A stretch of 64,000 bases of DNA, from positions 806,001-870,000 of the forward strand of contig JBBCGI010000001.1 of NCBI GenBank assembly GCA_037200975.1, given 5' to 3'. Both the position numbers and the translations under genes were made by a program. This document shows, one piece after another, positions 560 through 20,977 of the stretch; positions within the stretch are counted from its first letter, which is position 1; each line of letters opens with the position of its first letter. This stretch comes from Pseudomonadota bacterium (lineage in GTDB: Bacteria; Pseudomonadota; Gammaproteobacteria; Steroidobacterales; Steroidobacteraceae). The notes under the pieces are model-generated. The model was not told the origin of the DNA, searched no databases, and worked only from the letters and a program-made list of their open reading frames with translations.

Positions 560-569
560 CGATGGGATC

Positions 570-630
570 AGGGTGCCGGGTGGGGAAAGTGGGGAAAGCG
601 GCTTTCCCCACTTTCCCCACCCGGCACCCT
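570..630. repeat. 61-bp perfect palindrome, copy 1
   Basis: Two exactly complementary 30-base arms (570-599 and 601-630) are separated by a single base at 600. The core reads GTGCCGGGTGGGGAAAGTGG and continues GGAAA. The right arm runs into the stop codon of the DUF3501 gene (629-631), and the element lies between two convergent genes, so it could act as a two-way terminator. A diverged second copy with the same core is at 20878-20977, which argues for a dispersed repeat family (REP/MITE-like) rather than a one-off terminator. No transposase or RAYT gene is in the window. Confidence 0.85.
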
Positions 631-1213
631 AATCGAGGTCGGCGAGCAGTGCGGAACGCACGTGGTCGCTGGCCGGATCGAGGCGGTGCTGATAGTTAGG
701 GTGGTCGATGCCGATGGACAATGCGGCGCCGCCCTTGAGTCCGGCGACCATCGTCGCGGTGAGCTCGAAGCGCAGGAAGTGCACCGCCGAGGTCTTCACC
801 TCGTTCTCGCGTTCGAGGTCCTCGTCGGCGATCGCGAACAGCTTCTCGCAGCCCGCGACCTGCACCCAGCAGCGATCCTCGACTCCCTTCAACTTCTCGA
901 GCTGAACGCGACGGATTTCCGGATCGGTGTATTCGATGAGGAACGTGGCTTTCCAGTTGCTGCCGTCGGGAATCAGCGGGTTGTAGGCGGCCAGTTCATC
1001 GGCGATTCCTTCCACCTCGAAGATGCGTTCGGTGCGCAACATCTCCTGCACCTGGTATTGCACCGTGAGGCGGTCCTCGAACAGCCACATGGTGTTCGGG
1101 CCGACGCTCACCTGCCGGTGCTTCTTGTGCGCCATCACGCGCACGCGGAAGTCGGCACGATCGCGCGAGTACCGTTCGAGCGACCACAAATCGGCGGGAG
1201 CGAGTTTCTTCAT
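629..1213 (-). CDS. DUF3501 family protein
   Basis: A 194-residue soluble protein of the DUF3501 family; molecular function unknown. Typical features are the N-terminal motif KKLAPADLWSLERY, then a segment around FEDRLTVQYQVQEMLRTERI, and a Trp/Phe-rich middle part. No signal peptide or membrane segment. It is the last gene of a leftward three-gene operon after rubrerythrin and an HdrD/GlpC-like Fe-S protein, with 7 bases between it and the preceding gene. This trio recurs together in many proteobacteria, so DUF3501 probably works with the Fe-S protein and the rubrerythrin in an oxidative-stress or electron-transfer task; that is inference from context. Its stop codon sits in the arm of the 570-630 palindrome. 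Confidence 0.85.
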   Translation of the reverse strand: MKKLAPADLWSLERYSRDRADFRVRVMAHKKHRQVSVGPNTMWLFEDRLTVQYQVQEMLRTERIFEVEGIADELAAYNPLIPDGSNWKATFLIEYTDPEIRRVQLEKLKGVEDRCWVQVAGCEKLFAIADEDLERENEVKTSAVHFLRFELTATMVAGLKGGAALSIGIDHPNYQHRLDPASDHVRSALLADLD

Positions 1214-1220
1214 CGGGTAG

Positions 1221-2585
1221 CTAGAGACCGTAGGCCTTGCGCACCAGCGTCATCGGGTGTTCAGGCTGGCGCTGTGCCTCGCCGGATTCCGGCGGCGTGA
1301 GGCCGCTTTCGATCTGGTGGCCCGCCATCGGGCAGTCGCTGGAGTAGTGATCGGCCTGCGCCGCCTGCACCCGGGACACCACGGGTTTGCCGATCTTGAC
1401 CGACGCGGCGCGATATTCCTTCTTCACGGCATAGGTGCCGTTGTGCCCGGAACAACGCTCGATGATATCCACCGTGGTATCCGGCACGAGCTTGAGCACG
1501 TCGCGCGTCTTCAGGCCGATGTTCTGCACGCGCAGGTGACACGGGACGTGGTAGCTGACCTTGCCCAGCTTGGTCGTGAAATCGGTACGCAGCAGGCCGG
1601 CCTTGTGCCGCAGCATGAGGTATTCGAAAGGATCGAAGATGCGCGCCTTGACGGCCTGCACGTCGACGTCAGCGGGGAACATCAGCGGCAGCTCCTGCTT
1701 GAACATGAGCACGCAGGACGGAATCGGCGCGACGATGTCGTACCCGTCGTCGATCAACGCCTTCAGCTGCGGAATGTTGAAATTCTTGTACTTTTCGACC
1801 GTCTCGAGATCGCCCAGCTCGAGCTTGGGCATGCCGCAGCATTTTTCCTTGCCGACGACCTTCACCGCGATGCCGTTGTGCTCGAACACGGCAGTCAGGT
1901 CTTCCGGAAGATGCGGTTCGTTGCGGTCGCCATAACAAGTGACGAACAGCGCGACCTTGCCGCGCGTGGTTTCCGTCGCCTTCACCTCGGTGACCTTGCC
2001 CGCGAGTCTGCGCGCGCGTTTGCTGCCGGTGTTCGAATGGAATTTCGGAATCGGCGCAGTCGCGGCCACACCCAGCGTGGCCTCGAGCAGTTTGCGCCCG
2101 GCCTTCGTGCCGTTGACCGCGTTCACGATCTCGGCCACCACCGGAATGCCGGCGATGCTGCCGAGTCCGCGCGTGTTCGACAGTAGTTTGTCGCGCACGC
2201 TGTGTTCGCCGTTGCGATGCTGATGATGCTTGGCGCGCAACATCAGGTGCGGGAAGTCGACGTTCCACGGATGCGGCGGAACGTACGGACACTTGGTCAT
2301 GAAACACATGTCACACAGGTAACAGTGATCGACCACGTCCCAGTAGACCTTCTTGTCCACGCCGTCGAGCTCGAGCGTCGGCGACGCATCGATCGCGTCG
2401 AACAAGGTCGGGAATGAATTGCACAGGCTGAAGCAGCGGCGACAGCCATGGCAGATGTCGAAAACCCGCTCGAGCTCTTTTTCGAGCGCGGCCGGGTCGT
2501 TGAACTCGGCACTCCGCCAGTCGAGCGGATGACGCGAGGGAGCCTGCAGGCTCCCCTCGCGTATGCCGGTTTCAGTGGCGCTCAT
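1221..2585 (-). CDS. HdrD/GlpC-like iron-sulfur protein
   Basis: A 454-residue protein of the heterodisulfide reductase D / GlpC type. The N-terminal part carries two ferredoxin-like [4Fe-4S] motifs, Cys45-48-51-55 (CHGCRRCFSLC) and Cys88-91-94-99 (CYLCDMCFMTKC). The C-terminal half has two cysteine-rich CCG-like domains. The first has KCCGMPK; the second has the variant ERCSGHNG, with Ser where the family usually has a second Cys. No membrane segments and no flavin domain, so it is probably an electron-transfer subunit. It lies between rubrerythrin and DUF3501 in one operon (14 and 7 bases apart), which suggests a shared redox role. No convincing Shine-Dalgarno precedes the ATG, but the N-terminus fits the family. 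Confidence 0.88.
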   Translation of the reverse strand: MSATETGIREGSLQAPSRHPLDWRSAEFNDPAALEKELERVFDICHGCRRCFSLCNSFPTLFDAIDASPTLELDGVDKKVYWDVVDHCYLCDMCFMTKCPYVPPHPWNVDFPHLMLRAKHHQHRNGEHSVRDKLLSNTRGLGSIAGIPVVAEIVNAVNGTKAGRKLLEATLGVAATAPIPKFHSNTGSKRARRLAGKVTEVKATETTRGKVALFVTCYGDRNEPHLPEDLTAVFEHNGIAVKVVGKEKCCGMPKLELGDLETVEKYKNFNIPQLKALIDDGYDIVAPIPSCVLMFKQELPLMFPADVDVQAVKARIFDPFEYLMLRHKAGLLRTDFTTKLGKVSYHVPCHLRVQNIGLKTRDVLKLVPDTTVDIIERCSGHNGTYAVKKEYRAASVKIGKPVVSRVQAAQADHYSSDCPMAGHQIESGLTPPESGEAQRQPEHPMTLVRKAYGL

Positions 2586-2599
2586 GGGACGCGCGCTAG

Positions 2600-3013
2600 T
2601 TAGATGGAGTCGAGCGCCTTCTGGAAACGATTGGCATGAGAACGCTCGGCCTTCGCCAGCGTTTCGAACCAGTCGGCGATTTCGGAGAAACCTTCTTCGC
2701 GCGCGGCTTTCGCCATGCCGGGGTACATGTCGCTGTACTCGTGCGTCTCGCCGGCGATCGCCGCCTTGAGATTCATCTTGGTTTCGCCGATCGGCAGACC
2801 CGTGGCCGGATCCCCCACCGACTCCAGATATTCGAGGTGACCATGCGCGTGGCCGGTCTCACCTTCCGCGGTCGATCGGAACACGGTGGAAACGTCGTTG
2901 TAACCTTCGACGTCCGCCTTGGCTGCGAAATACAGGTAACGGCGATTCGCCTGCGACTCGCCGGCGAATGCGTCCTTCAGATTCTTTTCCGTCTTGCTGC
3001 CTTTCAGGTTCAC
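2600..3013 (-). CDS. Rubrerythrin, rubredoxin-less short form
   Basis: A 137-residue ferritin-like diiron protein that probably reduces hydrogen peroxide. Likely iron ligands are Glu19 (AGES), Glu52 with His55 (GETGH), Glu89 with His91 (AGETHEY) and Glu123 with His126 (AERSH). The C-terminal rubredoxin domain with its two CxxC knuckles is absent, so electrons must come from another protein; the Fe-S protein next in the operon is the obvious candidate. I chose the GTG at 3013 because AAGGAGAG lies a few bases upstream and the family begins with NLKGSKTEKNL; a longer reading frame to 3037 lacks such a signal. First gene of the operon, transcribed leftward, with operator-like palindromes upstream. 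Confidence 0.88.
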   Translation of the reverse strand: MNLKGSKTEKNLKDAFAGESQANRRYLYFAAKADVEGYNDVSTVFRSTAEGETGHAHGHLEYLESVGDPATGLPIGETKMNLKAAIAGETHEYSDMYPGMAKAAREEGFSEIADWFETLAKAERSHANRFQKALDSI

Positions 3014-3035
3014 GGCTCTCTCCTTACCTATGACC

Positions 3036-3068
3036 AATGGGAATGGCTCTCATTTAGACTTGTTCTAA
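3036..3068 (-). promoter_or_regulatory. Candidate Fur-family operators before rubrerythrin
   Basis: Two adjoining sites lie 23-55 bases upstream of the rubrerythrin GTG. On the minus strand 3036-3054 reads AATGAGAGCCATTCCCATT, matching the 19-base Fur consensus at about 14 positions. Next to it, 3054-3068 reads TTAGAACAAGTCTAA, an inverted repeat (TTAGA-N5-TCTAA) resembling PerR/Irr-type boxes of the same regulator family. Both are found by eye only; the regulator is not in the window. Confidence 0.4.
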
Positions 3069-3183
3069 GAGTGGCGCGAACTCTACGACCCCTCGTGAGC
3101 ACGCGTCAATCGGGAAGCAACGACTCGGCGCGCGGCGGCATCTGCCGTTGCCCAACCGCCGTCCGACGTTTAACGTCGCGCGC

Positions 3184-6406: not shown

Positions 6407-6431
6407 AAAGCCCGCAAACTGTGCGGGCTTT
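6407..6431 (+). terminator. Hairpin after dxs
   Basis: A perfect 10-bp stem (AAAGCCCGCA / TGCGGGCTTT) with a 5-base loop lies between dxs and folE2. The T-run is short, but the A/T closing pairs at both ends suit a two-way intrinsic terminator. It separates the isoprenoid genes from folE2, whose start codon is 20 bases downstream. Confidence 0.62.
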
Positions 6432-6450
6432 ATCCACTCAGGCATTTCAA

Positions 6451-7278
6451 ATGAAACCCGCCGTCGCTCCCCAGCCCCGCGTTCTGACCGTCGAAGACGT
6501 GCAGAGCCGCGCCGACACACGCCAGATTCCGATCAACCAGGTCGGCATCAAGGACATCAATCATCCGGTCAAGGTGAAAGACCGTTCCGCCGGCGAGCAG
6601 CACACGGTGGCGAACTTCAACATGTACGTGAACCTGCCGCACAACTTCAAGGGCACACACATGTCGCGGTTCGTCGAGATCCTGCATCGCGAACGCGAGA
6701 TCTCGGTGGAATCCTTCGGCAGCCTGCTGGCGGAGATGACCGACCGCCTCGAAGCGGATTCCGGCCACATCGAAATGACGTTCCCCTACTTCGTCATGAA
6801 GAAGGCGCCGGTGTCGGGCGTGGAAAGCTACATGGACTACCGCGCCAGCCTCGTGGGCCGGCGCGTCAAGGGCACGACGGAAATGTGGGTGAAGGTGGTC
6901 GTTCCGGTGACGAGCCTGTGCCCGTGCTCGAAGAAGATTTCCGAACGCGGCGCCCACAATCAGCGTTCGCACATCACGATCAACGCCCGGCTGCGCGAAC
7001 ACATGTGGATCGAGGAGCTGATCGAGATCGCGGAGAGCGAGGCTTCGTGCGAGTTGTACGGCATCCTCAAGCGCCCCGATGAGAAATACGTGACCGAACG
7101 CGCCTACGACAACCCCAAGTTCGTCGAAGACATGGTGCGCGACGTGGCGGTGCGGCTCAACGACGAGCCGCGCATCGCGGCGTACGTGGTGGAGTCTGAG
7201 AACTTCGAGTCGATCCACAATCACTCCGCCTATGCGCAGATCCAGCGCAACAAGGACGCGGACGGCCAGGACGCGTAG
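6451..7278 (+). CDS. folE2: GTP cyclohydrolase FolE2 (type IB)
   Basis: A 275-residue FolE2, which converts GTP to 7,8-dihydroneopterin triphosphate at the start of folate (and queuosine) synthesis. Family marks are [17 protein letters not shown] near the start, a [16 protein letters not shown]-like segment ([20 protein letters not shown]), and the active-site Cys in [20 protein letters not shown]. Unlike the zinc enzyme FolE, FolE2 works with other metals, and in many bacteria it is made under zinc shortage; I see no clear Zur box here. I chose the ATG at 6451 because the family start MKPAV fits it and the upstream GTG at 6421 lies in the terminator hairpin. Confidence 0.93.
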
Positions 7279-20877: not shown

Positions 20878-20977
20878 GTGCCGGGTGAGGAAAGTGGGGA
20901 AAAGGAGCCGGGATTTGCGGTCCGGGCAGCGTCTCCTGGTTGGCCGGTTCCTTTTCCTCACTTTCCTCACCCGGCAC
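20878..20977. repeat. Long inverted repeat, copy 2 of the palindrome family
   Basis: Two 34-base arms (20878-20911 and 20944-20977) match at 32 positions; both mismatches are G-T, so an RNA copy would still pair throughout. The loop is 32 bases. The outer part reads GTGCCGGGTGAGGAAAGTGG and so shares its core with the perfect palindrome at 570-630, differing in the loop and inner arm. It lies between the HDAC-family gene and glyA, both leftward, so it could end the deacetylase transcript. Confidence 0.8.

Follow-up and report, generated by a model that had tools for sequence, protein, structure and literature searches.

Gene content of the operon

The stretch of DNA analysed here (the window, 64,000 nt) comes from a gammaproteobacterium of the family Steroidobacteraceae (assembly GCA_037200975.1, contig JBBCGI010000001.1, positions 806,001 to 870,000). 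At its start lies a compact minus-strand operon that encodes RBR, an 'aerobic-type' rubrerythrin without a rubredoxin domain, followed by RFO, a GlpC/HdrD-like Fe-S protein, and a DUF3501 protein, with intergenic gaps of 14 nt and 7 nt (Table 1). A palindrome upstream of RBR is conserved in relatives and goes with the gene for an Irr-like protein of the Fur superfamily, which is encoded elsewhere in the genome; this candidate operator and its candidate reader are the subject of the present analysis.

Table 1. Features of the RBR-RFO-DUF3501 operon and related sites (positions in the window)
Feature	Position	Strand	Remarks
RBR, rubrerythrin without rubredoxin domain ('aerobic-type')	2600..3013	-	137 aa, GTG start
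RFO, GlpC/HdrD-like Fe-S protein	1221..2585	-	454 aa
DUF3501 protein	629..1213	-	194 aa
Shine-Dalgarno before the RBR GTG	3018..3025	-	AAGGAGAG
Palindromic operator candidate (Irr/ICE-type)	3054..3068	-	TTAGAACAAGTCTAA; single genomic place, conserved before RBR, goes with Irr-like gene
-35 candidate	3104..3109	-	TTGACG; best sigma-70-like pair upstream of the palindrome, spacing 18
-10 candidate	3080..3085	-	TAGAGT; 11 nt upstream of the palindrome
Fur-like 19-mer	3036..3054	-	AATGAGAGCCATTCCCATT; matches two Fur-box strings better than any other place in the window, poorly conserved
Near-perfect inverted repeat	566..634	.	34-nt arms, 1 nt between; overlaps last 6 nt of DUF3501
Palindrome before katG (L185, L186, L191, L207, L274)			relatives G014, G033, G041, G047, G044

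A Pfam search of the 137-aa RBR returned PF02915 (Rubrerythrin, E 1.5e-30), spanning residues 10-133, and no rubredoxin domain was among its matches. Seven residues (E19, E52, H55, E89, E92, E123 and H126) were invariant across 81 aligned rows, and we take these to be the expected di-iron ligands, as in Desulfovibrio rubrerythrin. The nearest solved chains were Rubrerythrin 9onm and 4di0, with 8fuh and sulerythrin as further relatives. RFO carries the CCG domain PF02754 (E 1.5e-15) and two Fe-S motifs, CX2CX2CX3C at residues 45-55 and CX2CX2CX4C at residues 88-99, which are kept in 65 rows, as are its CCG-domain cysteines C217, C249, C250, C291, C349, C378 and C418; a structure search gave no solved relative of RFO at E 1e-3. 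The third protein was assigned to DUF3501 (PF12007, E 3.1e-66), and its solved relative 3fjv (E 9.5e-53) is described as an 'uncharacterized novel protein'.

With a rubredoxin-less RBR, a co-located COG0247-type CCG Fe-S protein and DUF3501 all present, the operon is a member of the aerobic-type RBR-RFO-DUF3501 module. A first-pass annotation of this DNA had described just such an operon, and both the gene layout and the Pfam domains bear it out. It labelled RFO 'HdrD-like', but the best NCBIfam model was GlpC (232.5 bits, under the cut-off of 278), and the HdrD model was missing among the eight NCBIfam matches. The trio has been described as one module by Cardenas et al. (2016, PMC5114695), who proposed that RFO can compensate in electron transfer for the lost rubredoxin domain. 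The annotation called the pathway in which the Fe-S protein donates electrons 'not well described', which is true of its biochemistry only, since that paper had already published the trio and the proposed donor role. The module is reported to be widespread, with a mitochondrial location predicted for several protists (PMC7050145). The main text of PMC5114695 contains none of the terms 'PerR', 'promoter', 'upstream' and 'regulat'. Within the open PMC literature, no test of the regulation of the aerobic rubrerythrin module was found, nor any paper on Irr control of the trio; subscription papers and regulon databases lay outside that scope, and a prior prediction is possible.

A conserved palindrome at the predicted transcription start

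The palindrome has no other match in the window even when three mismatches are allowed (0.06 expected), and TTAGA-N5-TCTAA occurs in one place in the entire 4.65-Mb genome. A search for a wider regulon in the same genome gave a sole other place within three mismatches of TTAGACTTAGTCTAA, at G000:C1:2530629-2530643, with no convincing target. The first-pass annotation had read the palindrome as an operator tied to iron or peroxide, and had proposed looking for it upstream of the trio in relatives. It is conserved there, which supports that reading: among 80 named contig loci encoding close RBR relatives, TTAGA-N5-TCTAA was found within 300 nt upstream of RBR as an exact match in 41, and in 49 when one mismatch was allowed. 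Four control patterns gave no exact match at any of the 80 loci, and one of them gave two matches at one mismatch. The consensus of the sites is TTTAGACTnAGTCTAAA, with TTAGAC in 62% and TTAGAA in 33% of them; a TTTAGAA minority has what we take to be the form of the Irr (ICE) box, which the palindrome resembles.

A weight matrix was built from the 49 sites, so that counts made with it in the contig set lean towards the matrix, and it was then applied to 40 genomes with usable upstream DNA (the genome of the window, hereafter the own genome, and 39 relatives). These are the 42 RBR-positive genomes, own genome included, minus G001 and G008, in which RBR stands at a contig start without upstream DNA. 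The contig set and the genome set share two loci (L018 is the same as L092, and L012 is like L097).

Promoters were surveyed at 78 sites, sites below 15 bits or with less than 70 nt of upstream DNA being left out, using sigma-70 matrices in what we take to be their usual forms. At 54 of the 78 sites a sigma-70-like promoter outscored 95% of shuffles, and in 44 of these 54 well-predicted promoters TTAGA follows the end of the -10 box by 7-14 nt. Since the -10 box ends so shortly before it, the palindrome covers the likely transcription start, which is predicted to be a repressor-type position.

The Irr-like protein

A PF01475 search showed that the own genome encodes two Fur-family proteins. 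The first is Fur (200 bits, above the model cut-off). The best models for the second (L002:1444-1866; G000:C1, match at 4004525-4004815) were IrrA and Irr, with 125.9 bits against a curated NCBIfam cut-off of 150 and 118.3 bits against 170; because these scores are below the cut-offs, the protein is called Irr-like, or Irr-clade, rather than Irr. PerR-type models score it at 26-84 bits, compared with 126 for IrrA, and all of the 22 aligned Irr-like proteins match both Irr models. In a tree that has long branches and only two PerR rows, 35 Irr-like proteins and three annotated alphaproteobacterial Irr proteins fall on one side of a branch with support of 97/94, and the PerR and Fur rows fall outside.

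Residues H40, D88, H94, H96 and D107 are identical in 22/22 aligned Irr-like proteins, H94-x-H96 forming the HXH heme/metal motif. The own protein aligns with Bacillus PerR 2fe3 over the H40-D107 sensor region, and we assume that the five residues correspond to the regulatory ligands H37, D85, H91, H93 and D104 of B. subtilis PerR. These PerR-type ligands are common also to the alphaproteobacterial Irr-like proteins of L059, L079 and L080, and are therefore not discriminating. The own protein has a single Cys, without a following Pro, and so lacks both the heme regulatory motif (Cys-Pro, as in Bradyrhizobium Irr) and the paired CXXC that forms the structural zinc site of PerR. The Irr of R. 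sphaeroides has likewise been described as lacking the heme regulatory motif. Autoregulation of the irr-like gene was considered and rejected, as a site of at least 12 bits stands before only 3/36 irr-like genes (L080 with 22.3 bits, L028 with 13.1 and L138 with 12.2), and not before the own gene.

Co-occurrence of the palindrome and the Irr-like gene

Genomes were counted as Irr-like-positive at E <1e-20 in the genome set or at >=100 bits in the contig set; a 48.7-bit fragment in the genome of L072 was not counted. Among the 40 genomes, own genome included, the site precedes RBR in 29/29 with an Irr-like gene and in 4/11 without (p 1.8e-5), or 28/28 and 4/10 once the two loci repeated from the contig set are removed (p 7.6e-5). 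Among the 80 contig genomes it was found in 36/38 with the gene and 16/42 without (p 6e-8), and a plain one-mismatch rule in place of the matrix gave 34/38 and 15/42 (p 7e-7). All of these p values ignore shared ancestry. The two are also found side by side: an Irr-like gene is present in the flanks of five of the 52 contig loci with a site, and of none of the 28 without. In three alphaproteobacterial loci (L059, L079 and L080) it precedes RBR in the same orientation; in L028 and L037 it comes just past the trio, the site of L037 being weak (12.3 bits).

These observations point to the Irr-like protein as the probable reader of the palindrome, and Irr-family control appears better supported than control by Fur or a classical PerR. 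Where the first-pass annotation proposed Fur/PerR-type control, model scores, tree and co-occurrence make an Irr-clade protein the best candidate. Several points weigh against Irr control, apart from the shared ancestry, the scores below cut-off, the limits of the tree and the near absence of sites before irr-like genes already given. Seven of the 29 sites in positive genomes are weak, at 12.3-17.4 bits (99% of shuffles are below 9.2 bits, and the highest reached 19.0). Two Irr-like-positive contig loci, L061 and L081, have no site. The palindrome is also present where no Irr-like gene was found: in G010, G028 and G037 (74-87% complete, G037 having no Fur-family match at all), in G051 (100% complete), before katG in G014 (100% complete), and at 16 of the 52 site-bearing contig loci, for which completeness is not given. 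Draft assemblies may account for many of these, but hardly for G051 and G014.

The same carriers without an Irr-like gene, above all the two complete genomes and the 16 contig loci, are what would be expected if the palindrome were read by some other regulator and the Irr-like gene merely shared its lineages. We regard this as unlikely, given that the site accompanies the Irr-like gene so closely in two sets that have two loci in common, that the gene flanks five alpha- and gammaproteobacterial loci all of which have a site, and that the motif resembles the Irr box.

OxyR-type sites in operons without the palindrome

Operons without the Irr-like repressor more often bear an OxyR-type site. ATAG-N7-CTAT, with at most one mismatch, was found at 18/28 contig loci without the palindrome and at 1/52 with it (p 6e-10), and in 5/7 and 2/33, respectively, of the 40 genomes (p 6e-4). 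An OxyR-like gene flanks 15/28 contig loci without the palindrome and 0/52 with it; in G040, where no Irr-like gene was found, an oxyR-like gene is located divergently beside RBR. The two regulators, which are unrelated, thus seem to have substituted for each other at this operon. OxyR-model matches do not track the palindrome: in a search covering 43 of 59 genomes they were obtained in 39, none of them above the curated cut-off.

It could be argued that the palindrome is itself a variant site for OxyR, a LysR-type regulator, as it shares the 4-7-4 layout of ATAG-N7-CTAT with the outer bases changed, and peroxide genes lie downstream. This is very unlikely, and OxyR was rejected as the reader of the palindrome on its distribution, on the flank counts and on the position of the site. 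OxyR-model matches are present in G005, G009, G025, G029, G031 and G040, whose operon is without the palindrome, and are missing in G044, G047 and G050, where the palindrome stands upstream of katG or RBR; moreover, the site lies at the predicted transcription start, where an activator is unexpected.

The Fur-like 19-mer

The first-pass annotation had also pointed out a Fur-like 19-mer adjoining the palindrome. Such a 19-mer exists, overlapping the palindrome by one base. No other place in the window matches two Fur-box strings as well (14/19 and 16/19), both strings being taken in what we assume to be their accepted forms; a third register, GATAATGATAATCATTATC, matched nothing in the window at >=13. 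Its conservation upstream of RBR is poor. With palindrome matches excluded, 13/19 with either string was reached in only 4/39 relatives, none of the same genus: G005, G037 and G040 with the first string and G046 with the second. The string AATGAGAATCATTCTCATT reached at least 13/19 in nine upstream regions, six of which were the TTAGA palindrome, the rest being those of the own genome, G040 and G046. Fur as the main regulator was rejected because of this poor conservation.

Fur might still act on the operon through the 19-mer, possibly alongside Irr. The own genome does encode Fur, the same-genus G003 (L084) has a degenerate counterpart, TTGAGAGCAATTCTCGA, and the first string reached at least 13/19 in 4/40 upstream regions, mildly in excess of the 0.53 that shuffles predict. 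The rarity of such matches elsewhere, the lack of the palindrome in three of the four relatives concerned and the position of the Fur-like box downstream of the promoter make this improbable, and the 19-mer may be a lineage-specific second input.

Palindromes before katG and other genes

The palindrome also precedes katG in 5/41 katG-bearing genomes, as an exact match in G014, G033, G041 and G047 and with one mismatch in G044; at E 1e-30, neither G044 nor G047 has an OxyR-model match. This suggests a role in peroxide defence. A tie between the katG site and the irr-like gene was looked for and rejected, since the site was found in 4/28 genomes with the gene and 1/13 without (p 1). This also counts against the Irr reading, and it limits, as does the small number of katG sites, the case for a peroxide signal.

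Some further observations were made in the relatives. The katG upstream regions L254 (G005) and L257 (G032) have ATAGA-N5-TCTAT palindromes, near the OxyR layout, and five others have the TTAGA form. A further Fur-family gene adjoins katG at G005:C28:134706-137092 and at G042:C49:1090-3567, the protein from G005 being a long branch beside the Irr group in the tree. An exact palindrome at position 2575 of L193 (G034) lies approximately 90 nt before a gene whose protein resembles the product of window positions 6421-7278, which is presumably FolE2-like. At position 2271 of L184 (G057) two divergent genes have a strong palindrome (28.6 bits) between them; by eye, one product resembles a TonB-dependent receptor and the other an MBL-fold hydrolase. 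An Irr-like gene is present in G057, where RBR gave no match.

Proposed regulation of the operon

The operon would encode a cytosolic peroxide-scavenging system. From the protein families and the literature, the di-iron RBR would reduce H2O2, RFO would take the role of the absent rubredoxin as its electron donor, and the DUF3501 protein would assist. Transcription would start from the sigma-70-type promoter at approximately 3109-3080 on the minus strand. Judging from the motif, its position, the co-occurrence and the adjacency, an Irr-clade repressor would bind the palindrome at the start and block this promoter, and would be released when peroxide, or an excess of heme and iron, is sensed at its His/Asp metal site or its HXH heme site. 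Taken as a whole, the best explanation of these sequence data is that the RBR operon is probably under an Irr-clade repressor acting at the palindrome, alternating in relatives with OxyR-type sites.

As for the signal, a repressor that senses iron only via heme would repress the iron-rich RBR and RFO at low iron and be released when iron or heme is plentiful. The HXH motif, the Irr-clade membership and the ICE-like box are all consistent with this, and alphaproteobacterial Irr is described as acting in this way on iron storage, its repressed targets including bfr and the rubrerythrin-like blr7895. A signal of iron alone is nevertheless doubtful, as the katG sites and the near-exclusion of the palindrome and OxyR-type sites before RBR both point to peroxide. 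In addition, rbr of Pelagibacter ubique is reported to rise 1.57-fold when iron is limiting (PMC2864753), whereas simple Irr repression at low iron would predict the reverse; this weighs against the favoured reading as well. Because the palindrome also precedes katG, a peroxide-linked release is favoured over a purely iron- or heme-linked one. It is plausible, though not more likely than not, that the gammaproteobacterial Irr-clade protein is a narrow peroxide repressor of the RBR operon, and of katG in some lineages, interchangeable with OxyR. If true, Irr would not be confined to iron control in alphaproteobacteria but would also have a PerR-like role, and Irr-clade regulators would be at work in gammaproteobacteria with peroxide-centred targets. 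Since the operator is conserved, a candidate repressor can be named and Irr-type and OxyR-type operons offer a natural contrast, the signal of the module is directly testable.

An inverted repeat after DUF3501

The inverted repeat at the end of DUF3501 folds as RNA with -71.2 kcal/mol (z -12.2) and is probably a terminator or mRNA-end hairpin. It belongs to a repeat family for which the genome gave, at up to three mismatches, 36 matches in forward and 35 in reverse orientation, and the reversed control gave none. Another member lies at 20884-20971 of the window, and paired arms are mostly 0 to approximately 126 nt apart; the family looks like a REP/REPIN-type element.

Comparison with known systems

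Bacillota PerR is a repressor of peroxide genes that acts at a 15-bp palindromic box. Its His/Asp regulatory ligands align with those of the own Irr-like protein, whereas the latter has a single Cys and lower scores with PerR models, and the two PerR rows fall outside the Irr branch. With the alphaproteobacterial Irr/ICE system the present one has in common an Irr-clade regulator, a box at the likely transcription start that is ICE-like by its motif, and a rubrerythrin-like target; alphaproteobacterial irr mutants are also described as having raised oxidative-stress resistance. Irr-clade regulators have been described as restricted to alphaproteobacteria with few exceptions. The present system differs in being gammaproteobacterial, with mostly TTAGAC sites, a single exact site in the genome, and katG as a target in some relatives.

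The clusters of Sideroxydans, in which the trio is reported to be located with oxyR (PMC7852563), contain the same three genes, but here an Irr-type site is present, and the site-bearing loci have no OxyR-like gene in their flanks. The module of Cardenas et al. (2016) likewise has the same genes and domain make-up, to which an operator and an Irr/OxyR alternative are added here. The operon itself is therefore known, and what appears to be new, as predicted from sequence, is a gammaproteobacterial operator with an Irr-like candidate reader, which alternates with OxyR-type sites.

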